DNA of 64,000 bases from Candidatus Enterococcus myersii (GTDB taxonomy: Bacteria > Bacillota > Bacilli > Lactobacillales > Enterococcaceae): the NCBI RefSeq assembly GCF_017316025.1, contig NZ_JAFLVT010000006.1, forward strand, positions 124,001-188,000, given 5' to 3'. Each line of letters starts with the position of its first letter. Position 1 is the stretch's first letter. The notes below the pieces were generated by a model, which was not told the origin of the DNA, ran no database searches, and saw nothing but the letters and a program-made list of their open reading frames with translations. The translations under genes and the position numbers were made by a program. This document shows positions 25,921-42,770 of the stretch, piece by piece.

Positions 25921-27945
25921 TTATTTAAAAAGCGTATTGATTGCAGTGTCAATCATACTTTGATTAGCTAGGTAAGGAATTGTGATATGATCAGTACCTT
26001 TATTCATTTTGTTATATTCAATCGATGTTTCAATGGCGTGATCATTTCGTGCCCAACTACGACGTGCTACACCGCCCATTGTATCCCAAGCGATAGCAGA
26101 TTTAATAATATCATCTACTAATTTTGAACCGTCTAATACAAGGCCAAACCCGCCGTTGATTGATTTTCCGATGCCAACACCACCGCCGTTATGAAGCGCA
26201 ATTAATGACATTCCACGAGCAGCGTTGCCTGCATAACACTGTGTTGCCATATCGGCACAAACATTGCTGCCATCTTTTATATTGGATGTTTCTCGGAATG
26301 GTGAATCTGTTCCGGAAACGTCGTGGTGATCACGCCCAAGCATAACTGGGCCAATTTTTCCTTCTCGAACCAATTCATTGAATTTTAGTGCGATATTTAC
26401 TCTACCCATGCAATCTTGATATAAAATGCGTGCTTGCGTGCCAACAACAAGTTGATTTTTTTCCGCATCACGAATCCAGTTGTAGTTATCGCGATCTTGA
26501 TAGCGACGATTAGGATCAATAACTTCCATCGCGGCATGATCGGTTGCCACTAAGTCTTCATGGTTGCCACTCAAGCAAACCCAACGGAAGGGGCCATAGC
26601 CATAATCAAACAACATCGGGCCCATGATATCTTCTACATAAGAAGGCCAAATAAAACCGTCTTTATCATCCACGCCGTTTTTAGAAATCTCTTTAATACC
26701 GGAATCATAAATAGCCTTCATAAATGAATTGCCATAGTCAAAGAAGTAAGTTCCTTTGGCAACAAGTGATTCAATGACATGATAGTGTCGTTTTAGCGTT
26801 TCATCTACGAGTTGATGGAATTTCGCGCTGTCTTTTGCGAGTAGTTCTGTTCTTTCTTCAAATGTAATTCCGGCGGGACAATAACCGCCATTATAGACAT
26901 TATGGCAAGAAGTTTGGTCAGATAATAAATCAACATGGATATCATGTTGCGCAATATATTCTAATAAGTCCACGATATTTCCATGATAAGCAATTGATGT
27001 TTTTTCTTTTCTGGCAAGATACTCTGACGCAATTTTTACAGCTTCTGCCGGCGTAGTAGCAAGATTAGAAATCCAACCCTGTTCTAAACGAGTATCAATA
27101 CGTGAACGGTCAACTTCTGCAATGATTGCCACCGCATTGGCAATTTCTCCGGCCTTCCCTTGTGCACCGGACATGCCCCCAAGACCAGAAGAAATAAATA
27201 ATTTTCCTGCTAAATCACCATCGTCGGCAATTCCCAGTTTTAAGCGTCCAGCATTTAAAAGTGTATTAAAAGTGCCGTGTACAATCCCTTGTGGTCCAAT
27301 ATACATCCAGCCGCCTGCTGTCATTTGTCCATAGTTGGTTACACCCATTTCTTCGGCGATTTCCCAATCGTCGATATTATCATATTCTCCTACCAACAAA
27401 CCATTTGTGATAATTACGCGAGGCGCATCCTTTTTAGATTTGAAAAGACCTAGTGGGTGGCCAGATTCCACTACTAAAGTTTGTTCGTCTGTCATAATTT
27501 CAAGGTATTTTTTTATTAGATTATATTGCATCCAGTTGGAACAAACTTGTCCAGTTTCGCCATATGTGACTAATTCATAAGGATAAAGAGCAACTGAAAA
27601 GTCCAAATTGTTATCAATCATAACTTGCATTGCTTTTGCAGCCGTGCAATTTCCTTGGTATTCATCAATAGGCTTTCCGTAAATCCGTTCTTTGGGGTAC
27701 CAACGATAACCATAAATCCGTCCCCGTGTTTTTAATTCTTCCAGAAATTCAGGAATCACAACTTCATGGTATTTTGGATGGACATAACGTAGGGCATTTT
27801 TCAATGCAAGCTCAGTTTGTTCCTTCGTTAAGCGAAACCCGCGGTCGGGTGCTCGCCGAATTCCCTCTTGAAAAATAGTTTTCTCTGGTAAAAAGTCATC
27901 TAATTTTACCGTCATCGCTTGTTCGATGTCTTTTAAGTCAATCAT
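25921..27945 (-). CDS. hutU: Urocanate hydratase
   Basis: Second step of histidine breakdown: urocanate + water to 4-imidazolone-5-propionate (EC 4.2.1.49), using tightly bound NAD as electrophile. The 674-residue form matches Gram-positive and anaerobe urocanases (about 675) rather than the 555-residue proteobacterial form. Visible family segments include GLGGMSGAQG, the YNGGYCPAG Cys loop and GRDHHDVSGTDSPFRETSN. ATG 27945 follows AAGGAGG and is preferred to 27963. It is transcribed divergently from hutI, from a promoter with GAC-core direct repeats and a cre-like site. Confidence 0.97.
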   Translation of the reverse strand: MIDLKDIEQAMTVKLDDFLPEKTIFQEGIRRAPDRGFRLTKEQTELALKNALRYVHPKYHEVVIPEFLEELKTRGRIYGYRWYPKERIYGKPIDEYQGNCTAAKAMQVMIDNNLDFSVALYPYELVTYGETGQVCSNWMQYNLIKKYLEIMTDEQTLVVESGHPLGLFKSKKDAPRVIITNGLLVGEYDNIDDWEIAEEMGVTNYGQMTAGGWMYIGPQGIVHGTFNTLLNAGRLKLGIADDGDLAGKLFISSGLGGMSGAQGKAGEIANAVAIIAEVDRSRIDTRLEQGWISNLATTPAEAVKIASEYLARKEKTSIAYHGNIVDLLEYIAQHDIHVDLLSDQTSCHNVYNGGYCPAGITFEERTELLAKDSAKFHQLVDETLKRHYHVIESLVAKGTYFFDYGNSFMKAIYDSGIKEISKNGVDDKDGFIWPSYVEDIMGPMLFDYGYGPFRWVCLSGNHEDLVATDHAAMEVIDPNRRYQDRDNYNWIRDAEKNQLVVGTQARILYQDCMGRVNIALKFNELVREGKIGPVMLGRDHHDVSGTDSPFRETSNIKDGSNVCADMATQCYAGNAARGMSLIALHNGGGVGIGKSINGGFGLVLDGSKLVDDIIKSAIAWDTMGGVARRSWARNDHAIETSIEYNKMNKGTDHITIPYLANQSMIDTAINTLFK

Positions 27946-28016
27946 TGGTATTTCCTCCTTCATGTTTCTAATTGTTTGTGAATGAATGAAATGATTTCAA
28001 AGCTTTTACGCCTTTT

Positions 28017-28049
28017 AGTATATGTAATCGGTGTCAACGAAGCGTCTAT
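28017..28049 (-). promoter_or_regulatory. hutU promoter with 11-bp-spaced direct repeats
   Basis: Reading the minus strand: ATAGACG (28043-28049), 4 bp, GTTGACA (28032-28038), 9 bp, TATACT (28017-28022). The layout is the same as in the divergent hutI promoter. No -35 at normal spacing, so an activator is probably needed. A cre-like 14-mer overlaps (28023-28036). Confidence 0.6.
28023..28036. promoter_or_regulatory. cre-like site in the hutU-hutI intergenic region
   Basis: TGTAATCGGTGTCA fits TGNAANCGNWWNCA with one mismatch. It lies immediately upstream of the hutU -10, where CcpA binding would block transcription. Confidence 0.5.
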
Positions 28050-28097
28050 CGCTTAAAAAATTTTTTTAAAAATTTTTTTGACAAAAGGGAAGTCTGG

Positions 28098-28130
28098 TTT
28101 GACTCCTATTTGACTATATTTTTTTATACT
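28098..28130 (+). promoter_or_regulatory. hutI promoter with SARP-type direct repeats
   Basis: TTTGACT (28098-28104), 4 bp, TTTGACT (28109-28115), 9 bp, TATACT (28125-28130). A further TTTGACA lies at 28077-28083. Heptamers on an 11-bp period ending about 8 bp before the -10 are how SARP activators bind in actinobacteria. A SARP/BTAD-type regulator is encoded 1.5 kb downstream. Confidence 0.65.
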
Positions 28131-28163
28131 AGAGGTACGAAAATGATATGAAGGAGTAAAATT

Positions 28164-29417
28164 ATGAAAGCAGATAAAATTCTTAAAAATTTTAGTCAAA
28201 TTTTTTGTCCTATTGATAACGGAGTTCCTTTGCGAGGCGAGGAAATGAGTAAGGCGGTAATCATTGAAGATGGTTATATTGCGATTAAAGATGGCAAAAT
28301 TTTAGCTGTTGATCAAGGAGAGCCAGATAGTGATCTAATTAATTATGATACCGAGATTGTTGATTATACAGGTAAATTAGCTACACCAGGCTTAATTGAT
28401 TGTCATACCCATTTGGTTTATGGCGGTAGTCGTGAACATGAATTTTCACAAAAATTAAATGGCGTCCCTTATTTGGATATTTTAGCGCAGGGCGGTGGAA
28501 TTCTGAGCACGGTGAGAGCAACAAGAAAATCTTCTTTTAATGAGCTTTACGATAAGTCATCTGCTCTACTTGATAAAATGTTAGCTCATGGTGTGACAAC
28601 AGTAGAAGCGAAAAGTGGTTATGGCTTAAATTGGGAGACAGAAGAAAAGCAACTAAAAGTCGCAAAAGAGTTGAATAAGAATCATGTTGTCGATGTAGTT
28701 TCGACATTTATGGGGGCGCATGCTATTCCCGAAGAATATAAAAACCGTTCAGGTGAATTTATTGATTTCGTGATTACAGAAATGTTGCCAAAAGTAAAAT
28801 CAGAAAATTTAGCCGAGTTTTGTGATATTTTTTGTGAAAAAGGGGTATTTACAGCAGCAGAGTCCTATAAATTATTACACGCAGCAAAAGAAATGGGTTT
28901 TAAATTACGCATACATGCTGACGAGATTGCTTCCATTGGCGGGGTAGACGTAGCAGCACAATTAGGTGCGGTTAGTGCGGAACATCTGATGATGATCACA
29001 GATGAAGGCATTAAAAAATTAAGTGAAGCCCACGTTATCGGTAATTTATTACCAGCGACAACATTTAGTCTTATGGAAGATACGTATGCACCAGCAAAAA
29101 AAATGATTGAAAATGGGATGGCGATTACTTTGACAACAGATAGTAATCCAGGCAGTTGTCCCACCGCAAATTTACAATTTATTATGCAATTGGGCTGTTT
29201 TATGCAGAAGTTAACACCCATTCAAGTATTTAATGCCGTAACAATTAATGCAGCGTATTCTATTTGTCGAGCAGAAACTATTGGGAGCTTTGATAAGGGA
29301 AAAGCAGCTGATATTGCTATTTTTGATGCACAAAATATTGATTATCCATTATACTTTTTTGCCACAAATTTAGTGACAGATGTATATAAAGCTGGAAAAT
29401 TAATCAGTGCATTATGA
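28164..29417 (+). CDS. hutI: Imidazolonepropionase
   Basis: Third step of histidine degradation: opens 4-imidazolone-5-propionate to N-formimino-L-glutamate (EC 3.5.2.7). A 417-residue amidohydrolase-superfamily protein. The metal site is visible as [10 protein letters not shown], with further ligands in [18 protein letters not shown] and the late Asp in [16 protein letters not shown] precedes ATG 28164. It is monocistronic with a strong terminator, divergent from hutU. Confidence 0.97.
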
Positions 29418-29452
29418 TAAAATAACCAGTAAAAAGCATTTTGTTTCTTATC

Positions 29453-29488
29453 CTCTCAAATTCTAGCTATAGAATTTGAGAGTTTTTT
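29453..29488 (+). terminator. Terminator of hutI
   Basis: CTCTCAAATTCTA pairs with TAGAATTTGAGAG around GCTA, followed by TTTTTT. The downstream regulator is therefore a separate unit. Confidence 0.9.
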
Positions 29489-29510
29489 ACTAGTCTGTAC
29501 TTTTTGCTTT

Positions 29511-29524
29511 TGAAAGCGGTATCT
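29511..29524 (+). promoter_or_regulatory. cre-like site upstream of the SARP-like regulator
   Basis: TGAAAGCGGTATCT matches TGNAANCGNWWNCA except for the last base. It lies 70 bp before the regulator's start codon. Confidence 0.5.
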
Positions 29525-29594
29525 TTATTTGGATGCTTCCTTTAGAATAAGGATGAAGAATTGGCGGCAATAATGGTTGAAAGAAGGTACAACG

Positions 29595-32500
29595 ATGCCA
29601 CATATATTATCTTTTGAATTATTAGGTACGCCATCTATTAAAGTAGATGGGGAAACAAAAATTTTTTCATTTTCGAAGATCAATGCATTACTTTATTACA
29701 TGGTCATTAATAAGCGAATTAGTCGGGATGAGATTGCGGGTATTTTATGGCCTAGTAAAGATGAAAAAAGTGCAAAAAAAAATTTACGCAATACAATTTA
29801 TCAAGCCAATCGTGCGATGGGCGGCGAATTTATTGTTTCGCCAAATAAAACAATTTTGACCTTTAATTGTGATGTGACAGTTGAAAGTGATACTTATCGT
29901 TTTGAAGAAGATGCTTATACACATCTAGAAGAATATCGGGATGAATTTTTAAAGGGCTTCTATTTGAAAGACTCGGATTTGTTTGATGCTTGGTTAGCAA
30001 AAATGCGTAACTTGTATGAACACCAATTTATTGAATGTTGTTATCAAAAAGTAGCAGAAGATATTTCGTTTCATGCTGTAGCCGATGTGGAAAAGAATAT
30101 TCGTAAATTAATTGCGATTGATGAATTTGACGAACGTAATTATCAATTGCTGATGCGTTTTTATATCGAGAACCATCGAAATGGTAAAGCAATTGAAACA
30201 TATTACGAATTAGCGGAAATTTTAAAAGTTGAATTGGGGATTGAACCAGGAGAAGAAACAAAGCAGTTATATCAAGAAACATTGAAAATTGCCAACCAGA
30301 AACATGGCGATTTACGAAAAAAAAGAGCGTATCATTTTTATGATCGTGCCAACGAGGTTGAACGCTTGGAGTTAAACTTAGCAAATTTAAAACAAAAGAA
30401 ACCATTTCAATCAGTTTTGGTTAAAGGTGATTTAGGCGTTGGCAAATCAGCTTTATGTCAGCTAGTTTTAGAAAATATTCAATATTCATACGAATGTCTC
30501 AAAGTGACTTGTTACAAAGCAGAGCAAAAACATTTTTTACGTCCCTGGCGAGAATTATTACAGCAACTGATGCTTTTATTGCAAAAAGATAATTTGGCTG
30601 AGATCGATCAATGGGAACAAACATTTAGTCGACAATTTCCTTTTTTTAAAGAGTTAAAAGCACAATCTATGTCAGAAAACGTCGCCCCAGCTGAACTTAA
30701 TTTTTTGGCACAAAGCATTTCAGAAGCCTTGCAACAGCTAGGGAAAAAAAGACCCCTTATTATTTTTATTGAAAATCTCCAATGGATGGATCATGGGAGT
30801 ATCAAATTATTGACGAGTGTACTTCTGCACAATCCTCATTCTGATATTATTTTTATTATGACCTTGCAGACGGGCTACCGCAAAGAAATATACGATTTTA
30901 TTGCCAGTGTTCGGCATTACGAAAAGATCATTACCTTAGACTTATCACCATTTAAAGACTTTGAAGTACGGGCTTTTTGTGAAAAACAACTTCCTGATTA
31001 TTCGTTTCAAACGACAACGCTAGATTTTATTGCAAGAGAGTCAGAAGGAATTCCTTTATATATCAATGAATACTTGAAACAATTACAAGAAAGCAACACG
31101 CTAGAAGTATTGACACCAAAAATGAATGATGAGTTAAGCTTACAATTTGTAAATTTGACTGCACTGGAATCTGAATTGGTCGACTTTATTTCATTTTTTC
31201 AAAAAGTTGCGCCAATGAGCCTTTTAACGCAACTAGCTGATGCCAAAAAAATTGAGATATATACCGCCTTGGATAATTTAAACAAGCAGGGATTGGTCAA
31301 AGAAAATGTTTATCTTGATGAAGTATGTTTTAGCTTCAATCATAAAAAAATGAAACAATATATTTATGCGCAGCAGTCCGCAATGAAATTACGAGTTATT
31401 CATGAAAAAATCGCAATTTTATTGGAACAAAAATTAAATGAGGTTACAGAGGATAGTGAACTACTAGCGGCGATCGGGTATCATTATCGCCATGCCCATC
31501 AAGAGCTAAAATCTTTAGATTATGAGTTGTCGCATCATCAAGCCTTTTTAAGAATCCAGCATGAACTATTTCCGATTTATCATCAGGAACATTTGTCATC
31601 GCAAGAGACAGTTAGAAAAGCAGAACCAAGCGAATTGGAAAAGTTTAAAGAAATTGGAACGAGATTAAAAGAAATTGAAGGACAATATGCAGAAGATAGT
31701 ACGTATCAATTGTTGTTAGTAAAATTTCTCTATTTAGAAGGACGTTACTTGATTAATTGCGGTGATTACAACCAGGGCTTGGAAAATATTCAGCGTGTTA
31801 TCGTGAAAGCCAAAGATTTTCATCTTACAACTTACCTATTGCGCGGGTATCGTCAGATGATTTATTACTATATTCAAACAGACAATGCTACGGATATGGC
31901 GCATTATATTGATTTGGCAATGGACGTTGCAATCAGTGCGAACAACAATGAATCTATCGGGATTTTATTACGCTTGAAGGGATTATATCATTTGATGATT
32001 GGGGATTTGGATCAAGCAGAATCGCTGTTTCAAGAGTCCATTACGATTTTTAATATAGCCAATCGCTTTGATGAAAAATACAACAGCAATATTGCTGCAG
32101 CCTACGATTATTTAGCAGAGATTCAGCGCTTACGGTCAAATTACCAGCAATCAATTAAACTACAACAAAAAGCCATCAATCTTTGCAAAGATAATAATCT
32201 TATGACAAGCTTAGCTATTTTTTATGTGGATATGGGAATCACTCTTTATGCAAAAAAAGACTACGACCAAGCGGAAATCTATTTTTTAAAAGCAAATGAA
32301 TTATTTGAAGTTACCGCATCTCTTTGGAAACGTGTCCAGCTAAATGCTTATTTGTCACTGATTTATTTATTTAAGCAAGATTATGAAAAGGTAGCTTTTT
32401 ATATAAAAAAAACCATTAGCTATCAAAATCAATTAGCCAATCCTCGCGATAGTGGGCTTGTCTATTTTAGCAAAGCACTGATTAAAGAAAAATATTTGGC

Positions 32501-32648
32501 AAATCAGATTGAAAATTCGCAATTAGGTGATTTAGTAACCGAGGATCTATCCTATTATGTGACTAAAGCTGTAGAAAATCTCAGTCAATATCGTGATCGG
32601 TATGAGTTACAAGTATTAAACGAAACTTTTCATTTGAAGATGAACTAA
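29595..32648 (+). CDS. SARP/BTAD-type STAND transcriptional activator
   Basis: A 1017-residue regulator. Residues 1-95 form an OmpR-like winged helix (FSKINALLYYMVINKRISRD then LRNTIYQANRAM), 100-245 a bacterial transcriptional activation domain (YQLLMRFYIENHRNGKAIETYY), about 260-560 a STAND/AAA ATPase with Walker A GDLGVGKS (near 278) and Walker B-like LIIFIENLQWMD, and the C-terminus is TPR-like. ATG 29595 is preferred over TTG 29577, which lies in the ribosome site. This SARP/MalT-like architecture is typical of actinobacteria and less usual in Firmicutes. It sits inside the histidine cluster, and SARP-like direct repeats lie before hutI, hutU and glmL, so it is probably the pathway activator. 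The ligand might be urocanate, histidine or another intermediate; that is a guess. Confidence 0.85.
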   Translation: MPHILSFELLGTPSIKVDGETKIFSFSKINALLYYMVINKRISRDEIAGILWPSKDEKSAKKNLRNTIYQANRAMGGEFIVSPNKTILTFNCDVTVESDTYRFEEDAYTHLEEYRDEFLKGFYLKDSDLFDAWLAKMRNLYEHQFIECCYQKVAEDISFHAVADVEKNIRKLIAIDEFDERNYQLLMRFYIENHRNGKAIETYYELAEILKVELGIEPGEETKQLYQETLKIANQKHGDLRKKRAYHFYDRANEVERLELNLANLKQKKPFQSVLVKGDLGVGKSALCQLVLENIQYSYECLKVTCYKAEQKHFLRPWRELLQQLMLLLQKDNLAEIDQWEQTFSRQFPFFKELKAQSMSENVAPAELNFLAQSISEALQQLGKKRPLIIFIENLQWMDHGSIKLLTSVLLHNPHSDIIFIMTLQTGYRKEIYDFIASVRHYEKIITLDLSPFKDFEVRAFCEKQLPDYSFQTTTLDFIARESEGIPLYINEYLKQLQESNTLEVLTPKMNDELSLQFVNLTALESELVDFISFFQKVAPMSLLTQLADAKKIEIYTALDNLNKQGLVKENVYLDEVCFSFNHKKMKQYIYAQQSAMKLRVIHEKIAILLEQKLNEVTEDSELLAAIGYHYRHAHQELKSLDYELSHHQAFLRIQHELFPIYHQEHLSSQETVRKAEPSELEKFKEIGTRLKEIEGQYAEDSTYQLLLVKFLYLEGRYLINCGDYNQGLENIQRVIVKAKDFHLTTYLLRGYRQMIYYYIQTDNATDMAHYIDLAMDVAISANNNESIGILLRLKGLYHLMIGDLDQAESLFQESITIFNIANRFDEKYNSNIAAAYDYLAEIQRLRSNYQQSIKLQQKAINLCKDNNLMTSLAIFYVDMGITLYAKKDYDQAEIYFLKANELFEVTASLWKRVQLNAYLSLIYLFKQDYEKVAFYIKKTISYQNQLANPRDSGLVYFSKALIKEKYLANQIENSQLGDLVTEDLSYYVTKAVENLSQYRDRYELQVLNETFHLKMN

Positions 32649-32683
32649 GTAAAAAGCCACGCAATATTGCGCGGCTTTTTACT
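32649..32683. terminator. Bidirectional terminator between the regulator and glmL-like gene
   Basis: GTAAAAAGCC-CGCAA pairs with TTGCG-CGGCTTTTTAC, a compact GC-rich stem with A- and T-runs on the two sides. Confidence 0.88.
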
Positions 32684-32696
32684 TTATCAGGCAGGA

Positions 32697-34085
32697 TCAA
32701 AGGCGGCGTAAACTTTTTTTTAAGATAGTCAGCGCCGCTTCCGGATATTTTTGACTTAAAAGCCCCATTGCCGATAAAAGATAATCTTGGTCAACATACC
32801 TTTTTGGATTGATCGGTAGCAATGCATCATCTACTGGCAAAAGCTCATTTTTTACGATTTCTTCAGGGTGTTGACTGTGAACGACAACACCACCAGTGGC
32901 AATAATGGTGTTGAAATGTTGAAGATTTTTTCCTTTTTGATAATACAGTGTCCGCGTTGGTGTTTGAACTGCTCTTTTCACACCCGCGTGCCGCTTTAAG
33001 GCAAATGTCATACTAGCCTCAGCAAGAAATTGATCAAAATCAATTTCTATTTTTGTTTTTGGAACAAAGGTTGGATGAGTACAGCGATAGTGGCAAGCCG
33101 ATTTTAAAGCAGATATATTTTCAGGCAGCAAATCTTCTTTTATTTCAGAGCTGCTTAAAAGCTGTTCCAACAAACTTTCAGCTGAAGAGCGCATACCAAG
33201 ATCACCTTCGACAGTTCTTTTTAAATATGGTTCAGCTAAGCCTTCAAAAAATACATCGTCAGATTGAAAGAGACCAGAACCGACTGAATGGACATCTGTT
33301 GTTGCACCACCAATATCTACGATTATTAAATCTCCTAGTCCTGAACAGGTTTTTGTTCCTTCCTTCAATAGTTTTGCAGCAGTTAAAACGGCTGTCGGTG
33401 TTGGAATAACAGGTTTATTACTATAAGGAGCAACCTGGTTCAGCCCTTTTGAATGAATAATTTTTTTCAAAAAAACCTTTTGTACAATTTTACGTACAGG
33501 GTCAGGATTTAACATATTTATTTGGGGCATAACGTTTTCAGTATAGAAGACATTTGCCCTGTTTTTGAAAGTAGCACTAAGTTGAGCAGTGGCAGCTTCA
33601 TTTCCGGCTACGATAATTGCAATATCTGAAGGTAATTGTGCAAGTAAGCACGCATTATAACAGATGATTTCCAGATTACCCCCGTTGCATCCCCCAGTTA
33701 GCAAGATAACATCGGGCTTTAGCTGATAAATTTCAGTGATTTGATCTAAAGTCAGACGGTAACAATATGTTTTTAAAATCCGGCTACCTGCACCTAACGC
33801 GGCTCTTTTGGCTGCTTCGGTAGTTAGGCTTTCTGTTAAACCAATCGCCACCATTTTGAACCCTCCCCAAGCAGATGAACAAAAGTATTCTTCAACAGGT
33901 AGTTGATTTTTTTCCCCTATTTTATTAAGTAACTTTTCCTTCCCTTTTTTATAGCACAAATAAAGTCCTTCTTGGCTACTAGTAGGCAGTTTTAGTGTTG
34001 CTACAATTATTGCCTCAATCGGATTAACTAGTGTTAGTTTTGTGTAAGTACTCCCAAAGTCAATTAATAAAGCAAGTTTTTGCAA
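32697..34085 (-). CDS. glmL: MutL/GlmL family (glutamate mutase reactivating) ATPase
   Basis: A 462-residue protein of the ASKHA-fold glmL family. Phosphate-binding loops are visible: LLIDFGSTYTKL at the N-terminus and IIVDIGGATTDVHSVG in the middle; VILLTGGCNGGN and ENVMPQINMLNP are also family-like. Such proteins reactivate adenosylcobalamin-dependent glutamate mutase and relatives. The start is taken as TTG 34085 because AGAGG lies 8 bp before it. No mutase subunit (GlmS/GlmE) is encoded in this window. Its promoter seems to carry the same direct repeats as hutI and hutU, so it is tied to histidine or glutamate fermentation. The partner mutase may lie elsewhere, or the protein may serve another B12 enzyme. 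Confidence 0.8.
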   Translation of the reverse strand: MQKLALLIDFGSTYTKLTLVNPIEAIIVATLKLPTSSQEGLYLCYKKGKEKLLNKIGEKNQLPVEEYFCSSAWGGFKMVAIGLTESLTTEAAKRAALGAGSRILKTYCYRLTLDQITEIYQLKPDVILLTGGCNGGNLEIICYNACLLAQLPSDIAIIVAGNEAATAQLSATFKNRANVFYTENVMPQINMLNPDPVRKIVQKVFLKKIIHSKGLNQVAPYSNKPVIPTPTAVLTAAKLLKEGTKTCSGLGDLIIVDIGGATTDVHSVGSGLFQSDDVFFEGLAEPYLKRTVEGDLGMRSSAESLLEQLLSSSEIKEDLLPENISALKSACHYRCTHPTFVPKTKIEIDFDQFLAEASMTFALKRHAGVKRAVQTPTRTLYYQKGKNLQHFNTIIATGGVVVHSQHPEEIVKNELLPVDDALLPINPKRYVDQDYLLSAMGLLSQKYPEAALTILKKSLRRL

Positions 34086-34394
34086 ATTTAGCACCTCTTT
34101 TTTTGATAAATTCTGTTATAAATAGAAAAAATTTCAGGAGAATAATTAGTTTTTTTTAATCTTTATTTATAAAAAACGAAACACTTCGACTATTAAACGT
34201 CAAAAATGATTTCTTATTTAAATATTCAATTTTTATTTCCCATCATTTTTTTAAAGAGGATTTAACCCATTGGCATAATGTCCTCTTGGTTTATAAAGAG
34301 CGATTTTTTAAAACGCAGAAATCATTAGCTATAATCCAAAATATTATCTTGTTTTCTATCTGTTTTGGTACAGGTTTTTTAACAAGGTAATTTT

Positions 34395-34426
34395 ATTTTA
34401 AAAAATATAGTCAAAAAAAGGTCAAA
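34395..34426 (-). promoter_or_regulatory. glmL promoter with SARP-type direct repeats
   Basis: Minus strand: TTTGACC (34420-34426), 4 bp, TTTGACT (34409-34415), 8 bp, TAAAAT (34395-34400). The repeat spacing equals that at hutI and hutU, and the 14 bp after the second repeat start like the hutI promoter (ATATTTTTT). Confidence 0.55.
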
Positions 34427-34532
34427 TGAAAAAAATGACAAATAAAATCAATAGATTGATTATCGATTTTTACTTAAAAAAACAGTTGTAGGTTTTATGA
34501 AAAAATTATAAAAAGCTGATTTTAACGGCATT

Positions 34533-34546
34533 TGCAACCGTTTTGA
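34533..34546 (+). promoter_or_regulatory. cre-like site upstream of ftcD
   Basis: TGCAACCGTTTTGA matches TGNAANCGNWWNCA with one mismatch. TTGCAA within it could also serve as a -35. Confidence 0.5.
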
Positions 34547-34711
34547 AAGAGTGATAAGCTGATTTTGGCTGATGGAAGCGGTAACAAAGGAGCGCATGTT
34601 AAGAATATCTGCTAAGAAAAATAACATGTGTAAAAAAATGCATGAAAGAGTAAAGTAACAAAATAAAAACTGAACGCAACCAAGTTCAAATTTAAGAAGG
34701 AGTGTTTTACG

Positions 34712-35611
34712 ATGGCAAAATTAATCGAGTGTATTCCAAATTTTAGTGAAGGGAGAAACCAAACTATAATTGAGGGCTTAGTTAAGATCGCTAAAAATGT
34801 AAAAGGGGTTACGTTATTGGATTATTCTTCTGACTCTTCTCATAACCGAAGCGTCTTTACTTTAGTTGGCGATGAAGACGGGATTCAAGAAGTTGCTTTT
34901 CAATTGGTAAAATATGCCAGTGAAAATATTGATATGACAAAACACCATGGCGAACATCCACGGATGGGAGCAACTGATGTTGTACCTTTTGTCCCAATTA
35001 AAGATGTCACTATGGCTGAATGTATTGCTATTTCAAAAAATGTTGCCAAACGAATTAATGATGAATTGCAAATTCCTATTTTCTTGTATGAAGATTCTGC
35101 GACAACTCCAGAACGAAAAAATTTGGCTAAGGTTCGTAAAGGACAATTTGAAAAGATGCCAGAAAAATTATTAGAAGAGCAGTGGGCACCTGATTTTGGA
35201 GAACGTAAAATCCATCCTACTGCTGGAGTTACTGCCGTAGGGGCAAGAATGCCGCTGGTTGCCTTTAACGTTAACCTAGACACCGATAATATTGAAATTG
35301 CCAATAAGATTGCAAAAATTGTGCGCGGTTCTTCTGGTGGTTGGAAATATTGTAAAGGAATCGGAGTTATGCTGGAAGGACGCAATATTGCGCAAGTTTC
35401 TATGAATATGGTGAACTTTGAAGGAACACCGTTATACCGTGCTTTTGAAACGATTCGGTTTGAGGCCAAACGTTACGGCGTTTCGATTATCGGAAGTGAA
35501 GTTATTGGTTTGACACCAGCAAAAGCGTTGATTGACTGTGCGGAGTACTATTTGCAAATTGAAGAATTTGATTATGACAAACAAGTTTTAGAGAACCATT
35601 TGTTGAATTAG
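34712..35611 (+). CDS. ftcD: Glutamate formimidoyltransferase
   Basis: Moves the formimino group of N-formimino-L-glutamate to tetrahydrofolate, releasing glutamate (EC 2.1.2.5). The 299-residue stand-alone transferase corresponds to the N-terminal half of the mammalian bifunctional enzyme. The N-terminus reads MAKLIECIPNFSEGRN, and the catalytic-region segment HHGEHPRMGATDVVPFVP is intact. AAGGAG precedes ATG 34712. It begins a long rightward unit, followed 10 bp later by the cyclodeaminase. Confidence 0.97.
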   Translation: MAKLIECIPNFSEGRNQTIIEGLVKIAKNVKGVTLLDYSSDSSHNRSVFTLVGDEDGIQEVAFQLVKYASENIDMTKHHGEHPRMGATDVVPFVPIKDVTMAECIAISKNVAKRINDELQIPIFLYEDSATTPERKNLAKVRKGQFEKMPEKLLEEQWAPDFGERKIHPTAGVTAVGARMPLVAFNVNLDTDNIEIANKIAKIVRGSSGGWKYCKGIGVMLEGRNIAQVSMNMVNFEGTPLYRAFETIRFEAKRYGVSIIGSEVIGLTPAKALIDCAEYYLQIEEFDYDKQVLENHLLN

Positions 35612-35621
35612 GAGGATTATT

Positions 35622-36248
35622 ATGAAACTCGTTGATATGCAGTTAAAAGAATTTGTTAACGTCCTTGGTTCTGATGCACCAGCTCCCGGAGGTGGCTCTG
35701 CTTCTGCTTTAGCGGCTGCCCAAGGAATTTCACTAACAAAAATGGTGGCAGAACTGACGATTGGTAAGAAGAAATATGCTGATTTTGAAACTGAAATGAA
35801 AAATTTACAACAAAAAGCAGCTGATTTGCAAGCGGAATTACTCGTCGCTATTGATGAAGATACTGCGGCCTTCAATCAAGTTTCAGCCGTTTTTGAAATG
35901 CCAAAAAGTAGTGAAGAAGAAAAAAAAGAGCGCCGCAGAGCACTCCAAAAAGCCTTGCAAGGAGCCGCAGTTACACCGTTTAATCTGATGGAAAAAATTG
36001 TTACAGCCTTAGAACTTACACAAGGAGCTATTGGTAAATCCAATAGCAATGCTGCAAGTGATCTAGGCGTTGCTGCGCTAAATTTGAAAGCAGCACTCCA
36101 AGGGGCTTGGTTAAATGTTTTGATTAATCTTTCAAGCATTGAAGATGATGCTTTTGTCTTAAAATACCGAAAAAATGGGGAAAAACTAGTAAAACAAGGA
36201 AATAAAATCGCTGATGACATTTATCAAAAAATTATTGAAATCATTTAA
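35622..36248 (+). CDS. fchA: Formimidoyltetrahydrofolate cyclodeaminase
   Basis: Converts 5-formimino-THF to 5,10-methenyl-THF and ammonia (EC 4.3.1.4). The 208-residue all-helical protein has the family segment APAPGGGSASALAAAQG near the N-terminus and a conserved DEDTAAFN region. AGGAGG precedes ATG 35622. It lies between ftcD and fhs, the order expected for a pathway that hands the C1 unit to folate. A FolD cyclohydrolase, needed to make 10-formyl-THF, is not in this window. Confidence 0.95.
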   Translation: MKLVDMQLKEFVNVLGSDAPAPGGGSASALAAAQGISLTKMVAELTIGKKKYADFETEMKNLQQKAADLQAELLVAIDEDTAAFNQVSAVFEMPKSSEEEKKERRRALQKALQGAAVTPFNLMEKIVTALELTQGAIGKSNSNAASDLGVAALNLKAALQGAWLNVLINLSSIEDDAFVLKYRKNGEKLVKQGNKIADDIYQKIIEII

Positions 36249-36285
36249 CGGTTTAAATTTTGTTTGAAGAAAGGAAGTTTGCTAC

Positions 36286-37953
36286 ATGGTCTTATCAGAT
36301 ATCGAGATTGCAAATTCAGTCACAATGAAACCAATCGAAGAGATTGCAGAATCTATTGGAATTAACAAAGAAGATTTATCTTTGTATGGCAAATATAAAG
36401 CCAAAATTAATAATATTAAAGATTTAGACGGTAAAGATAACGGGAAATTGATTTTGGTCACGGCTATTACACCAACACCGGCTGGAGAAGGTAAAACTAC
36501 GACGTCAGTTGGCTTAGTAGATGCCCTCACAGCAATTGGGAAAAAAGCTGTCATTGCGCTACGTGAGCCTTCATTAGGGCCAGTTTTTGGCGTAAAAGGT
36601 GGTGCAGCTGGTGGTGGCTATGCACAAGTTGTCCCAATGGAGGATATTAACTTACATTTTACAGGAGATTTTCATGCTATTGGTGCGGCAAATAATTTAT
36701 TAGCGGCGTTATTAGATAATCATATTCATCAAGGCAATGTCTTGCAGATTGATTCTCGTAAGATTACGTGGAAACGAGTTGTCGATATGAATGACAGGCA
36801 ATTACGGCACATCGTTAATGGTCTGCAAGGACGTGTCAACGGTGTTCCACGGGAAGATGGTTATGATATTACAGTGGCTTCTGAAATTATGGCAATTTTA
36901 TGCTTAGCCAATGATATAACTGATTTGAAAAATAAACTACGCAATATTATTGTTGCTTATAATTTTGAAGGTGAGCCGATTACAGCCGGAGATTTAAAAG
37001 CAGAGGGCGCATTGACCGCATTATTAAAAGATGCGATTCAACCGAATATTGTTCAAACTTTGGAACACGCACCAGCTTTCATCCATGGCGGCCCCTTTGC
37101 CAATATCGCTCATGGCTGTAATAGCGTATTGGCGACAAAATTAGCACTAAAATATGCTGATTACGCTGTAACAGAAGCGGGTTTTGGAGCTGATCTTGGA
37201 GCAGAAAAATTCATTGACATTAAATGTCGCTTGGCCAACTTAAAGCCAGATGCAGTCGTATTGGTAGCCACAATTCGTGCTTTGAAAATGCACGGCGGCG
37301 TTAAAAAAAGTGAATTGGGAACAGAAAATGTCGCGGCGGTTATTGCAGGTATCCCGAATTTGGCTAAGCATTTAGAAAATATTACAGAAGTTTATGGCAT
37401 GCCAACAGTTGTAGCAATTAATAAATTTCCAACAGATACATTAGAAGAAGTCGCGGCGGTTGAAGAAGCATGTGAAAAATTGGGTGTTGCAGTCGTTTTA
37501 TCTGATGTATGGGGCAAAGGGAGTGCTGGTGGTAAGGCGTTGGCTGAAAAAGTTGTTGCTTTGGCCGAAGAACCCAACAACTTTAGCTATGTTTATGATT
37601 TAGACGATTCAATTGAAGAAAAATTAAATAAAATTGTTCAGAAAGTTTATGGTGGTAAGAAGGTAGACTTAACACCAAGCGCAAAAAAAGAACTAAAAGA
37701 GTTAGAACGTCTTGGTTTTGGGAATTATCCCATTTGTATGGCAAAGACACAGTACTCATTTTCTGATGATGCAACGTTGTTGGGGGCGCCAACAGACTTT
37801 ACAGTAACAATCCGAAATTTAAAAGTATCTGCCGGCGCGGGTTTCATCGTCGCGCTTACGGGTGCGGTTATGACAATGCCAGGGTTACCAAAATCTCCTG
37901 CGGCTGAACGAATTGATGTTGATGAAAAAGGAAATATTACCGGTCTATTTTAA
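36286..37953 (+). CDS. fhs: Formate-tetrahydrofolate ligase
   Basis: Interconverts formate + THF + ATP and 10-formyl-THF + ADP + phosphate (EC 6.3.4.3). The 555-residue length is standard. The P-loop [16 protein letters not shown] is at about residue 65, and the family segments [10 protein letters not shown] and [14 protein letters not shown] are present. Directly after ftcD and fchA, it most likely runs in reverse, yielding ATP and formate from the C1 unit of histidine. The formate channel gene at 25071 would provide the exit. Confidence 0.97.
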
Positions 37954-37964
37954 TGGATTAAAAA

Positions 37965-37995
37965 GATATAGGGAGATAAAAAATCTCCCTATATC
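37965..37995 (+). terminator. Hairpin after fhs
   Basis: A perfect 13-bp stem, GATATAGGGAGAT/ATCTCCCTATATC, with a 5-nt A-rich loop. The T-run after it is weak, so partial termination between fhs and the permease gene is likely. Confidence 0.7.
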
Positions 37996-38033
37996 AAATT
38001 CTCTTTTAGAAAGTAGTTCAATTTCCAAAATAT

Positions 38034-38047
38034 TGAAAGCGCTTTTA
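38034..38047 (+). promoter_or_regulatory. cre-like site upstream of the permease-hutH unit
   Basis: TGAAAGCGCTTTTA has a strong palindromic core (AAAGCGCTTT) and one mismatch to TGNAANCGNWWNCA. It lies 27 bp before the permease start. Confidence 0.6.
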
Positions 38048-38073
38048 AAAATACAAAATAAGAGGTGAATATT

Positions 38074-39441
38074 ATGCAAAAAGATGTGGAAATCCCAGAG
38101 GTATCAGATGTCAAAGACATTGATTCAGCAGAACTGGCAGAAAACGAGAACGCCAAATTTAGTTTGGGAGGCGCAACCTTATACGGCATTAATGCTGTTA
38201 TTGGTTCAGGAATTTTCCTATTACCCCGAACGATCTATCAAGATTTAGGCCCGGCTTCTTTAGTGGCCATGCTGTTAGATGCTGTTTTAGTTTTGATGTT
38301 AGCGGTTTGCTTTGCCGAAGTTGCTGGTTATTTTAATAAAAACGGCGGCGCCTTTCAGTATTCAAAAACCGCCTTTGGTGATTTTATCGGGTTTAACGTA
38401 GGAGTTTTAGGTTGGTTTGTTACAATTATCGCTTGGGCTGCCATGGCAGCGGGTTTTGCTAAGTTATTGATTCAAACTTTTCCTGCTTTAGAGGGGAAAA
38501 ATACACTAATTAGTATTTGTTTGGTTATTTTCTTATCCGTTATTAACAGCATGGGTATTAAAACTTCAAAAATTTTTACAATTGTAATTACCATCGCAAA
38601 ATTGATTCCGATTATTGCCTTTACACTGATTGCAATTTTCTTTATTAAAAGCGGTATTAATGGGGGCAACTTTACACCATTTTTACAACTAAACCCAGAC
38701 TTAACGTTATCAAAAGCGATGGCTTCAACATCACTTACAGTCTTTTATGCTTTTATCGGGTTTGAAGCCTTACCAGTCGTTGCTGGTGAAATGCGAAATG
38801 CTAAAAAGAATGTACCCAAAGCTATTATTGGTTCCATTAGTATCGTGTCACTACTTTATTTCATGATTATCGCTGGCACCATTGCCATGCTTGGAACAGG
38901 TATTTTACAAAGTAATGCACCCGTTCAAGATGCCTTTGTTAAAATGATTGGTCCTGCGGGTAAGTGGATCATCTCTATTGGAGCTTTAATTTTCATAGCA
39001 GGGTTAAATATGGGGGATTCGTTGATGATACCTCGTTATGGTGCTTCCATTGCAGATGAAGGTCTTTTACCAAAAGTTATTGCGAAAAAAAATAAAAAGA
39101 ATGCGCCGATTATTGCCATTATCTTTTCTGGATTGTTAACAATTGCCTTTTTATTGAGTGGATCTTTTGAACAGCTAGCAGAATTATCAGTTGTTTTTCG
39201 ATTCTTCCAATACATTCCCACTGCATTGGCAGTTATTTGGTTAAGAAAAAAAGATATGGAAAATGTCCCAGCCTTCAAGTTACCATTTGGCCCAGTCATA
39301 CCAATTATTTCGATTATTGTTAGTATTTGGATGGTAGCAGCTGCAAATCCAATCAACTTGGTTGCCGGTGTTATCGGTGTAATTGTGGCAAGTATTTTAT
39401 ATGTCATTTTGAACAAAAATAAAATGAAACAAGCGAATTAA
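38074..39441 (+). CDS. APC family amino acid permease, probable histidine importer
   Basis: A 455-residue permease with 12 predicted helices after a 35-residue acidic cytoplasmic tail. The helix-1 motif GINAVIGSGIFLLPR is the unwound substrate-binding segment of APC transporters. AAGAGGTG precedes ATG 38074. It lies directly before hutH in the same unit, so histidine is the natural cargo. Exchange with a product such as glutamate is possible but not readable from sequence. Confidence 0.85.
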   Translation: MQKDVEIPEVSDVKDIDSAELAENENAKFSLGGATLYGINAVIGSGIFLLPRTIYQDLGPASLVAMLLDAVLVLMLAVCFAEVAGYFNKNGGAFQYSKTAFGDFIGFNVGVLGWFVTIIAWAAMAAGFAKLLIQTFPALEGKNTLISICLVIFLSVINSMGIKTSKIFTIVITIAKLIPIIAFTLIAIFFIKSGINGGNFTPFLQLNPDLTLSKAMASTSLTVFYAFIGFEALPVVAGEMRNAKKNVPKAIIGSISIVSLLYFMIIAGTIAMLGTGILQSNAPVQDAFVKMIGPAGKWIISIGALIFIAGLNMGDSLMIPRYGASIADEGLLPKVIAKKNKKNAPIIAIIFSGLLTIAFLLSGSFEQLAELSVVFRFFQYIPTALAVIWLRKKDMENVPAFKLPFGPVIPIISIIVSIWMVAAANPINLVAGVIGVIVASILYVILNKNKMKQAN

Positions 39442-39498
39442 GTTTGTCTCTTATAAGCTGTATTGCGAATGAGAGAGATTAAAAAGTGAGGGAAAATT

Positions 39499-41082
39499 AT
39501 GAAAACCTTAGTTAAAGATCAAAAACAAGATTTTGATAGATCAGCTGTAATTATTTTGGATGGAGCTAGTTTAACCTTAGAAGATGTTGTAGCAGTAGCA
39601 CGTCACCACGTGCGTTGTGAAATCGCAGAAAGTGCCAAAGAAGCGGTTATTGCATCCCGTAAAATCGTTGACAAAATAGTAGAAGAAAGACGAGTTGTCT
39701 ATGGGGTCAATACAGGCTTTGGGTCATTATGTAATGTCAGCATCTCTAAAGAAGATACGGTGCAGCTACAAGAAAATTTGATTCGGACTCACTCTTCTGG
39801 TTATGGTGAACCATTTTCTGAAGATATTGTACGCGCCATCATGTTAATTCGGGTTAACTCCTTAATCAAAGGTTATTCTGGCATTCGTTTAAGTACAGTT
39901 GAAAGTCTGCTAGCTATGTTAAATGCCGGAGTACATCCGCACATCCCAGAAAAAGGTTCATTGGGAGCTTCTGGCGATTTGGCACCATTGGCTCATATGG
40001 TTTTACCATTATTAGGTCTGGGAAAAGCATACTACGAAGGAGTTTTATACCCTGGTAAAGAAGCAATGGAAAAAGCAGGGTTACAAATTATTCAACTAAG
40101 TGCTAAAGAAGGACTAGCGTTTATTAACGGTACGACCGTGTTGAATGCAGTCGGTGCTTTAGCAACTTATGATGCTATTGAATTATTGAAACTCTCAGAT
40201 ATTGCCGGCGCACTTTCTTTAGAGGTTCATGATGGGATTTCTAGTCCATTTGAAGAAGATTTGCATACAATTCGTCCTCAAAGCGGACAACTAGCGACGG
40301 CCCGTAATATTCGCCGTTTGATTGAAGATAGTCAATATATCACAGAGGCAACACCAGATCATGTGCAAGATCCATATACTTTGCGTTGCATGCCACAAAT
40401 TCACGGTGCTAGTAAAGACTCGATTGCCTATGTGAAAGAAAAAGTAGAAATTGAAATTAATTCTGTGACCGACAATCCAATTATTACGCGTAGTGGTGAA
40501 GTAATTTCAGGTGGGAATTTCCATGGGGAGCCACTAGCACAACCATTTGATTTCTTAGGAATTGCAGCAGCTGAAATTGGAAATGTTTCAGAAAGACGGG
40601 TTGAGCGGCTAGTCAATCGACAGTTAAGTAAATTACCATCTTTTCTAGTAAAATATCCAGGTTTAAATTCTGGCTTTATGATTACACAATATGCATGTGC
40701 TTCATTAGTTTCTGAAAATAAAATATTGGCGCATCCGGCAAGTGTAGACTCAATTCCATCTTGTGAAAATCAAGAAGACTTTGTCAGCATGGGGACAACA
40801 GCTGCACGAACAGCATTAGAAATAGTGAAAAACTCACGTCGTGTGGTAGCGACTGAGATTATGGCAGCTTGCCAAGCGTTGGATATTAAAGGTTATCAGC
40901 ATGGATTGGGTAAAGGAACCCAAGTAGCCTATGATGCTTTTAGACGTAATGTATCTTTTATCGAACATGATAAAGATATTGAAATGTATGATGAATTGAA
41001 TAAAGCAACAACCGTTTTAGAGGCTGGAGATTTCTTAAAAGAAGTTGAAAAAAATGTTGTATTAGATTTGCAGTTTGATTAA
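39499..41082 (+). CDS. hutH: Histidine ammonia-lyase
   Basis: First step of the pathway: removes ammonia from L-histidine to give trans-urocanate (EC 4.3.1.3). A 527-residue homotetrameric-type enzyme. The Ala-Ser-Gly triad that forms the MIO electrophile is at residues 157-159 in GSLGASGDLAPLAH. VYGVNTGFGSL near residue 72 and the VTDNPII segment are also typical. An extra 20 residues precede the usual N-terminus. It follows the permease by 57 bp, with a ribosome site AGTGAGG. Confidence 0.97.
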   Translation: MKTLVKDQKQDFDRSAVIILDGASLTLEDVVAVARHHVRCEIAESAKEAVIASRKIVDKIVEERRVVYGVNTGFGSLCNVSISKEDTVQLQENLIRTHSSGYGEPFSEDIVRAIMLIRVNSLIKGYSGIRLSTVESLLAMLNAGVHPHIPEKGSLGASGDLAPLAHMVLPLLGLGKAYYEGVLYPGKEAMEKAGLQIIQLSAKEGLAFINGTTVLNAVGALATYDAIELLKLSDIAGALSLEVHDGISSPFEEDLHTIRPQSGQLATARNIRRLIEDSQYITEATPDHVQDPYTLRCMPQIHGASKDSIAYVKEKVEIEINSVTDNPIITRSGEVISGGNFHGEPLAQPFDFLGIAAAEIGNVSERRVERLVNRQLSKLPSFLVKYPGLNSGFMITQYACASLVSENKILAHPASVDSIPSCENQEDFVSMGTTAARTALEIVKNSRRVVATEIMAACQALDIKGYQHGLGKGTQVAYDAFRRNVSFIEHDKDIEMYDELNKATTVLEAGDFLKEVEKNVVLDLQFD

Positions 41083-42059: not shown

Positions 42060-42656
42060 GTGTTAGAAAAGAAGTTAAAAAAAGATTATTTTACGACGAA
42101 ATGGGCAGGGGGCGTTACTACCGAAATTTTAATTGCGCCGGCAGCAAGTAGCTTGGCACAACGAGATTTTGATTATCGTATTTCAACAGCGACTGTTACG
42201 GACTCTCCATCTAATTTTTCAAATTTTACCGGGTATGAACGAATTATTCTGTCTTTAGACAAACCTATTTCGTTGCAGCAAAAAAATAACGTTATAGAAC
42301 TTGCACCTTTTGTACCTTATCGCTTTGACGGAGGTGTCGCGATGAAGAGTCTAGGTAAATGCCAAGATTTTAATGTGATTTTTAAGAAGAATAATCATGT
42401 TTGGGTAACGCTATTGCAAAATGGTGCAGCGCAGGATTTGATTATCGAGGGAGAAAATATTTTATCTGCTCTCCAAGATATTAAGGTGAGACTGATTGCT
42501 CGGAGCAAAAAGCAAGAAATTTTATTACAAAAAGGTGAAACACTTCTTATCAGGCAAGAACAGTTTGAGCAGATACAAATAATAGCGCAAAAAAAGTCTT
42601 TAATGGTAGAAAAGACGGCTATTTTGACGCAGATAAAAAAGAAAAAAACAGAGTAG
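42060..42656 (+). CDS. hutD: HutD family protein
   Basis: A 198-residue cupin-like protein of the HutD/Ves family; WAGGVTTEILIAPA, DFDYRISTATV and the GYERIILSLD strand are recognisable. HutD is found in hut operons across bacteria and has been proposed to limit hut flux, but its biochemical role is unsettled. It starts with GTG 42060 behind GGAGG. The tetrahydrofolate riboswitch begins right at its 3' end. Confidence 0.85.
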   Translation: MLEKKLKKDYFTTKWAGGVTTEILIAPAASSLAQRDFDYRISTATVTDSPSNFSNFTGYERIILSLDKPISLQQKNNVIELAPFVPYRFDGGVAMKSLGKCQDFNVIFKKNNHVWVTLLQNGAAQDLIIEGENILSALQDIKVRLIARSKKQEILLQKGETLLIRQEQFEQIQIIAQKKSLMVEKTAILTQIKKKKTE

Positions 42657-42770
42657 GAGATAGAGCGTTAAGTGTCAAAAGGATGGGATGTTGCCTTTTG
42701 GACGAAGAAGCGTATTCACGATTCTATCTTCGCATTCGCTGCATGAATAAATTATGTAGCAGCTCTATTT
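42651..42770 (+). ncRNA. Tetrahydrofolate (THF) riboswitch
   Basis: The conserved core of the folT-motif RNA is visible: GCGTTAAGTGT, then GGATGGGATGTTGCC, then GACGAAG, with CAAAAGG/CCTTTTG as the internal stem. AGATAGA (42658-42664) can pair with TCTATCT (42723-42729) to close the aptamer. Alternatively TAGAGC (42661-42666) can pair with GCTCTA (42762-42767), which ends four bases before the AAGGAG ribosome site of folT. Such mutually exclusive helices suggest translational control of folate uptake by THF. Confidence 0.85.

Follow-up and report, generated by a model that had tools for sequence, protein, structure and literature searches.

We analysed a 64,000-nucleotide stretch of Candidatus Enterococcus myersii DNA (contig NZ_JAFLVT010000006.1, positions 124,001 to 188,000; hereafter the window) from a genome of 2.97 Mb, in which the gene for a large AfsR-like regulator lies inside a histidine-utilization (hut) cluster whose promoters carry direct repeats on an 11-bp period. 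The genes run in the order hutU (minus strand), hutI (plus), regulator (plus), glmL (minus), ftcD, fchA, fhs, permease and hutH; fhs is presumably correctly named, going by the sequence of its open reading frame (ORF).

25921 to 27963, minus strand: hutU, urocanase (Pfam Urocanase domains).
28164 to 29417, plus strand: hutI, probable imidazolonepropionase, so named from its Amidohydrolase family match and its place in the hut cluster.
29595 to 32648, plus strand: AfsR-like regulator P0001, 1017 residues, with a predicted N-terminal DNA-binding region, BTAD (111–228), an AAA_16 nucleoside triphosphatase (NTPase) domain (248–412) and TPR (833–903).
32697 to 34094, minus strand: glmL, MutL family (PF13941, 3e-140); ORF from GTG, the probable start being the TTG at 34085, judging from a Shine-Dalgarno sequence.
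34712 to 41082, plus strand: ftcD, fchA, fhs, amino-acid permease and hutH (Pfam matches for four of the five).

The promoters of hutU, hutI and glmL each contain a pair of heptamers, termed a box, next to a −10 hexamer; the scores listed with the boxes come from a position matrix described below.

28032 to 28049, minus strand: hutU box, ATAGACG (28049–28043) and GTTGACA (28038–28032), 11-bp period, score 20.3.
28017 to 28022, minus strand: hutU −10 hexamer TATACT, read directly, 9 bp beyond the second heptamer, the commonest spacing in relatives.
28050 to 28097, no strand: 48-bp gap separating the divergent boxes, a spacing kept in relatives.
28098 to 28115, plus strand: hutI box, TTTGACT (28098–28104)-N4-TTTGACT (28109–28115), score 18.2.
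28125 to 28130, plus strand: hutI −10 hexamer TATACT, read directly, 9 bp past the box.
34409 to 34426, minus strand: glmL/ftcD box, TTTGACC (34426–34420)-N4-TTTGACT (34415–34409), facing glmL, score 13.7.
34395 to 34400, minus strand: glmL −10 hexamer TAAAAT, read directly, 8 bp past the box.

The repeats and −10 hexamers at hutI, hutU and glmL have exactly the sequences and coordinates given in the original prediction, and re-reading all three promoters confirmed its description of 11-bp-spaced heptamers with a −10 located 8–9 bp downstream. The boxes thus have the geometry of SARP sites, which are direct repeats 11 (or 22) bp apart with the last one 8 bp from the −10 (PMC10936776).

The matrix was built from 22 boxes at 11 loci (six belonging to the same family as the window and one of those to its genus as well, four of Companilactobacillus type and one from group f8); the window was kept out of the training set, and neither the −10 nor the inter-box spacing was part of the matrix. 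From 66 loci we drew 49 distinct hutU–hutI intergenic sequences, 38 of which had not been used for training. Same-strand WGAC pairs occur in the 49 sequences 77 times at 11 bp and at most six times at any other spacing, and the comparison with relatives, proposed as a check on the original prediction, shows the 11-bp repeats to be kept across this set. Where a TANNWT −10 was matched, its distance from the box was 9 bp in 43 of 50 cases, 8 bp in three and 11 bp in four. The best forward and best reverse boxes are 47–49 bp apart in 32 of the 38 test sequences and 59 bp apart in three; as the sequences are related by descent, they should not be counted as 38 independent cases. Dinucleotide shuffles give either gap class in 48 of 3,800. 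The 59-bp gaps belong to Vagococcus-like loci and are one helical turn longer than 48, and one sequence that the model counts at 48 although it is out of register (L022) measures 59 by eye. Three test sequences (L021, L095 and L100) miss both gap classes. A first pattern had missed L102 and the second boxes in several loci; these were first spotted by eye and afterwards also recovered by the model. The fixed spacing between the hutU and hutI boxes is an addition to the original prediction, as are the phasing of the glmL box with the ftcD promoter and a second, weaker box, both described below.

To place these boxes against chance, the strict pattern GAC-N6-TTGAC-N9/11-TANNNT was run over the 2.97-Mb genome, where it gave seven matches versus six for a reversed control. 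Three of the seven are the hutU, hutI and glmL promoters, all within 6.4 kb, and the other four are not promoter-like: three are on the opposite strand within large ORFs, and the fourth falls between genes, where no ORF of at least 110 residues follows nearby in its direction. This genome scan was also put forward with the original prediction; of its matches, only those at the three hut-cluster promoters are promoter-like. By the box model, the only other matches in the window scoring at least 12 are 14.5 at 48095 (minus strand) and 12.4 at 32151, inside the regulator gene; the former has a degenerate first heptamer and TACCAT 9 bp downstream. A stricter 11-bp pattern was surveyed in 24 hand-chosen genomes, 13 with the regulator and 11 without. 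It gave 33 matches in the regulator-bearing genomes (25 of them in the hut locus), four in the regulator-free ones and, for the reversed control, six across all 24. Six of the eight non-hut matches in regulator-bearing genomes were read, G086 C12 and C65 being left out: five fall within ORFs, and the sixth (L176) lies outside ORFs of at least 110 residues, with none nearby in its direction. On the basis of these six, a local regulon is favoured over a wider one.

The distribution of the boxes was then compared with that of the regulator. Among 395 genomes of the order, 52 have regulator homologues and 54 have hutU; both are present in 50, hutU only in four, the regulator only in two and neither in 339. 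The four hutU-only genomes all belong to one genus (g23), and the two regulator-only genomes are G084 (a weak partial match) and G175 (27% identity). We examined hut loci from 49 of the 50 co-occurrence genomes, together with four from a family search and four database contigs; G043, of the same species as the window, was left out, with short flanks only. Every regulator-bearing hut locus examined carries boxes at hutU and/or hutI, and in group f3 (17 genomes), where the regulator gene lies about 10 kb away from the divergent hutU/hutI promoters, the same boxes are found at those promoters. Autoregulation in f3 was considered and rejected, since no box lies upstream of the regulator in the four loci checked (best 5.4).

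The four hut loci without regulator (L116–L119, genus g23) contain no box-model match of at least 13 in 15–18 kb (best 12.5), and among their listed matches of at least 9.5 none has a −10 at 8–9 bp. The hutU promoter in L116, L117 and L118 is instead of the plain sigma-A type, TTGACA-N17-TATAGT, and a 10.8 match just upstream of hutU in three of the regulator-free loci is the −35 region of this promoter. In these comparisons the boxes follow the regulator gene rather than hut genes as such. All four g23 loci have a hutU-hutI-ftcD row preceded by a divergent hutD-like gene. The same loci bear on whether the window promoters might be ordinary sigma-A promoters in which the first TTGAC is the −35 and the second copy is incidental. 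TTGACT and TTGACA do resemble −35 hexamers and the −10s are good; however, the spacer to the −10 would be 19–20 bp from the first copy or 8–9 bp from the second, neither of which is usual, both heptamer copies are conserved across families, also in the form ATAGAC, and, where the regulator is absent, the three hutU promoters read (L116, L117, L118) have a normal 17-bp spacer. We consider such promoters extremely improbable here.

The boxes could alternatively serve another protein that binds direct repeats, either CtsR or a response regulator of the OmpR type, WalR and PhoP being examples. CtsR recognises heat-shock heptads (GGTCAAA) with a 3-bp gap and a 10-bp period, and WalR and PhoP also use direct repeats of about 11 bp. 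TTTGACC is the complement of the CtsR half-site, and a search at a 10-bp period did return CtsR-like boxes. However, the period of the boxes is 11 rather than 10, the variants ATAGAC and TTAGAC are not CtsR-like, and CtsR is present in all eight genomes tested, among them the four that have hut genes but neither the regulator nor strong boxes; the box matches are concentrated in regulator-bearing hut loci. The period, the heptamer variants and the distribution led us to reject CtsR-type operators, and a direct-repeat binder other than the regulator, a class of which CtsR alone was searched for, is very unlikely.

The regulator is not confined to the order. Of 398 genomes of the phylum, 109 have some match to it, in most cases restricted to the BTAD or NTPase part, and we examined six near-full-length matches outside the order (26–31% identity), leaving out a partial one (G734, residues 4–674). 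All six sit among hutU, fchA, ftcD and hutI, with hutH in five. The same matrix yields 16 matches of at least 12 in the six loci, all of them in L209–L213; a −10 lies exactly 9 bp downstream in 10, at 11 bp in one and is lacking in five, two of which fall inside coding sequence. By comparison, 40 shuffled sets of the six loci give a mean of 3.4 matches (maximum 10), and 0.2 with a −10 at 8–9 bp (maximum one). Another background count was set aside, since five of the loci in it had been selected because they carry the pattern. The 10 boxes with a −10 precede hutU (five, two of them in L211), ftcD, hutH, a DcuC-family carrier gene, an arginase-family gene that likely encodes formimidoylglutamase, and one further ORF (L210) that by eye resembles the arginase-family gene. 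The sixth locus, L208, has one box only (11.3), upstream of hutU with TATAGT at 9 bp. These boxes with their −10s are the strongest evidence that the boxes would belong to the regulator's protein family, and the regulon, originally predicted for one Firmicute, extends past it: all six outside homologues lie in hut clusters that carry boxes, the box in one cluster being weak. Within the order, a divergent homologue in G175 (L120, 8162–17721) lies in a purine/folate/formiminotransferase cluster without hutU, where a box scoring 10.1 with TATAGT at 9 bp stands ahead of an ftcD-like gene. This score is no better than two other L120 matches (11.3, inside an ORF, and 10.0), so the box is only suggestive; the cluster is possibly a sister regulon for another formimino compound. 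Since regulator-free loci score up to 12.5, boxes of 10–12, as in L208 and L120, are not decisive alone.

The original prediction also placed a SARP/BTAD-type protein between the promoters, and domain searches of P0001 bear this out with matches to BTAD (1.3e-14), AAA_16 (1.2e-17) and TPR_12 (1.3e-11); BTAD is found in 38 of 38 homologues. A profile of the 38 N-termini, compared with the PDB, matches AfsR at 0.037 and EmbR best, mainly over BTAD. Residues K62, N63, L64, R65, N66 and Y69 are invariant in the 38 homologues, and the P-loop columns G278, G281, G283 and K284 are invariant in 35 aligned sequences. Both alignments leave out L017, L023 and L113, near-duplicates (L090, L091, L094 and same-genome repeats) and 14 of the 17 f3 loci, and the full-length alignment additionally leaves out L034, L111 and L101. 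P0001 scores 23.8 bits against the NCBIfam AfsR equivalog NF053617, below the curated cut-off of 1430, and we therefore do not call it an AfsR orthologue.

The region between glmL and ftcD contains further elements besides the box listed above.

34532 to 34560, plus strand: ftcD sigma-A-like promoter TTGCAA-N17-TAAGCT, from a promoter scan of the sequence; its −35 begins 105 bp from the box edge.
34573 to 34586, plus strand: predicted cre-like CcpA site TGGAAGCGGTAACA, a short way 3' of the ftcD promoter, assigned from the generally known motif.
34187 to 34204, minus strand: element 2, a weaker box (TTTGACG-N4-ATAGTCG) in the glmL leader, score 8.1, with no −10 at 8–9 bp.

All 38 non-f3 loci measured have a box between the regulator gene or glmL and ftcD, pointing away from ftcD, also in loci that lack glmL or have it at another place (L016, L018, L093, L104 and L114, among others). 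A −10 follows it at 8–9 bp in 11 of the 12 facing-glmL loci other than L198–L207 (the exception is L098) and in four of 16 loci where no facing glmL was found (L034, L015, L018 and L025). Because the box is retained without a facing glmL or a −10, it seems to be kept for something besides glmL. In each of the 38 loci we took the best sigma-A-like promoter 60–190 bp downstream; the distances that separate its −35 from the box edge fall at 83 bp (one locus), 92–95 bp (nine), 101–105 bp (17) and 123–125 bp (11). The strongest box was used except in L032, where the next box (103) replaced the strongest (92), and in L203 the ftcD-proximal box (18.1) was used rather than a 19.1 box with no promoter at 60–190 bp. 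An ecfS-like gene is inserted between box and ftcD in L033, L015, L108 and L098, and the promoter there precedes the inserted gene. Two distance classes can occur within one genus: g13 (95, 104), g38 (83, 95) and g29 (94, 123–125). With the near-duplicates L027, L016, L023, L199, L201 and L202 omitted, the remaining 32 distances have a best period of 10.2 bp with a vector strength of 0.80; none of 20,000 random sets matches a thinned set of 20, and 37 of 20,000 match the four class means. Helical phasing of the box to the ftcD promoter is thus likely, as judged from these spacings, but not proven, since the classes were set after the data had been seen and are phylogenetically clustered.

In 15 of 22 loci listed, the segment from the box to the ftcD start contains a cre-like pattern right after the promoter, which suggests carbon catabolite control; by eye, a similar pattern stands in the hutU–hutI gap of a number of loci, the window not being among them. 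Boxes of the element 2 type (TTTGACG-N4-WTWGAT-like) recur in the stretch that separates ftcD from glmL or from the 3' end of the regulator gene, and they point away from ftcD. Among 38 regions, 12 of them short f3 regions, the TTTGACG core has this orientation in 24 and lies on the opposite strand in five. In several genomes an A/T-rich inverted repeat follows element 2, by eye; phasing of element 2 to the main box, likewise judged by eye, was dropped because no clear period appeared. The glmL leader is unusually long, the box lying 261–399 bp ahead in 22 loci with a facing glmL (34094–34395 in the window), and a riboswitch in it was discarded, as no Rfam family reached threshold in five sources searched. 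The glutamate mutase E subunit (PF06368), a candidate GlmL partner, was not found in the window genome; glmL belongs to the regulon although this search gave no match. Elsewhere in the window, a tetrahydrofolate riboswitch (RF01831, 84.3 bits, 42647–42743, plus strand) lies upstream of the gene for an ECF transporter S component adjoining folC.

The observed boxes, spacings, co-occurrence and domain order together indicate that the product of 29595–32648 is very probably an activator of the large SARP type, devoted in Bacillota to histidine catabolism. The prediction of a SARP-type histidine regulon in a Firmicute is supported by the regulator-linked boxes, their SARP geometry and the AfsR domain order. 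We infer that the regulator binds the boxes and activates transcription, that it responds to an inducer and that the boxes cooperate. In the proposed domain plan, an OmpR-like DNA-binding domain would be followed by BTAD, a STAND NTPase and a TPR sensor. By homology with known SARPs, two protomers would lie side by side on the two heptamers, adjoining the −10, and dock sigma region 4, so that no −35 would be needed at the box promoters. The NTPase/TPR half may hold the protein off DNA until inducer and ATP are bound, and histidine, urocanate and formiminoglutamate are candidate inducers. The two boxes at fixed spacing would join the divergent hutU and hutI promoters into one module, and the third would drive glmL and also act, some 100 bp upstream and always from the same side of the helix, on the ftcD-fchA-fhs-permease-hutH promoter.

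If the regulator binds the boxes, it could in principle repress and be released by an inducer: the boxes overlap the territory of sigma region 4, and the direction of regulation is not readable from sequence. However, hutU, hutI and glmL have no −35 at the usual spacing, as expected for activator-dependent promoters, and SARP relatives with the same geometry are activators (PMC10936776). We rate repression as highly improbable.

Several observations count against an activator of SARP type acting through these boxes. In the predicted DNA-binding part of the regulator, the alignments with EmbR (6.2 bits) and AfsR (0.4 bits) are colinear but weak; none of the 38 N-termini matches the Pfam winged-helix family Trans_reg_C, and a bridging BTAD homologue (L195) reaches 20.8 bits with it, below the cut-off of 26.2. 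Among the hut loci, the hutU box was not recovered in L095 and L100, the weakest locus (L019) has boxes of 8.5 and 7.9 that are within shuffle range, yet 48 bp apart, and the second hutI heptamers are degenerate (TTAGATG, TTAGTCG) in Vagococcus-like loci. Loci without the regulator reach 12.5, and 10.8 ahead of hutU in three. None of the ten Vagococcus-type loci with a facing glmL (L198–L207) has a −10 at 8–9 bp after the box, and element 2 is left unexplained by the proposed model.

A broader model, to which we give an even chance, is that of a Bacillota-wide SARP/STAND histidine regulon in which one box would work in two modes: as a −10-adjacent activator site, and from a distance, on one constant face of the helix, with roughly 8, 9, 10 or 12 turns separating it from a conventional sigma-A promoter, that of ftcD or of the inserted ecfS-like gene. 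The second mode would probably depend on oligomers formed by the NTPase protein, which would also bridge the hutU and hutI boxes. Of the two roles it would be the distal that is conserved, because the box outlives both glmL and its −10.

In lactic acid bacteria, and in members of the phylum distant from them, SARP promoter logic seems to control a pathway of primary catabolism. This places a large SARP in a metabolically interpretable setting, where the inducer should be findable among few metabolites, and the sensing step of AfsR-type proteins could become testable through this system; the phased spacings, in turn, predict long-range cooperation.

Among known regulators of hut genes, HutP (the B. 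subtilis antiterminator) and HutC (a GntR-type protein) act by different mechanisms. The original prediction had set the regulon apart from both HutP and HutC control; HutP was the one of the two searched for, and ten of the 12 genomes covered, among them that of the window, gave no match to it, while the two genomes that have it are both regulator-bearing and outside the order. HutC is named in the title of PMC12772324. HutR of Corynebacterium resistens also regulates a Gram-positive hut cluster, but it is IclR-type and uses a palindromic GTCTGWWATWCCAGAC motif, and the name HutR is already taken by it (PMC8222616). In its excerpted text, PMC9413887 deals with HisR and with T-boxes for the biosynthesis and transport of histidine, and refers to histidine utilization genes a single time. 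Among the top-ranked open-licence literature we found no published description of a SARP-type hut regulator; a conserved histidine regulon of Bacillota with a large SARP-type regulator dedicated to it therefore appears to be new, SARPs as a kind being already known. STAND activators such as MalT and GutR combine an NTPase with a helical-repeat sensor and switch on inducer and ATP, as proposed here, but with another DNA-binding domain. MalT and GutR are mentioned beside SARPs in PMC10936776, according to which SARPs occur mainly in actinomycetes and run antibiotic genes.

EmbR (PDB 2fez), the best PDB match of the regulator's N-terminal profile (5.7e-6), has an FHA domain after its SARP part, not an NTPase-TPR half (PMC10936776). 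AfsR of Streptomyces coelicolor, like the regulator, has the SARP-NOD-TPR order and acts at two 11-bp direct repeats ending beside the −10; inducer binding by the AfsR sensor domain is described as elusive in the discussion of PMC10936776. The DNA-contacting residues R87, K95 and W74 of AfsR (PMC10936776) align with R65, K73 and W52 of the regulator, which are invariant or at least 90% conserved in the 38 homologues, whereas the AfsR contacts T88, S91, R92 and R94 (PMC10936776) face the differing residues N66, Y69, Q70 and N72. Unlike AfsR, the present system belongs to Bacillota, serves a catabolic amino-acid pathway through an apparently local regulon, and combines divergent boxes at fixed spacing with a phased distal box.

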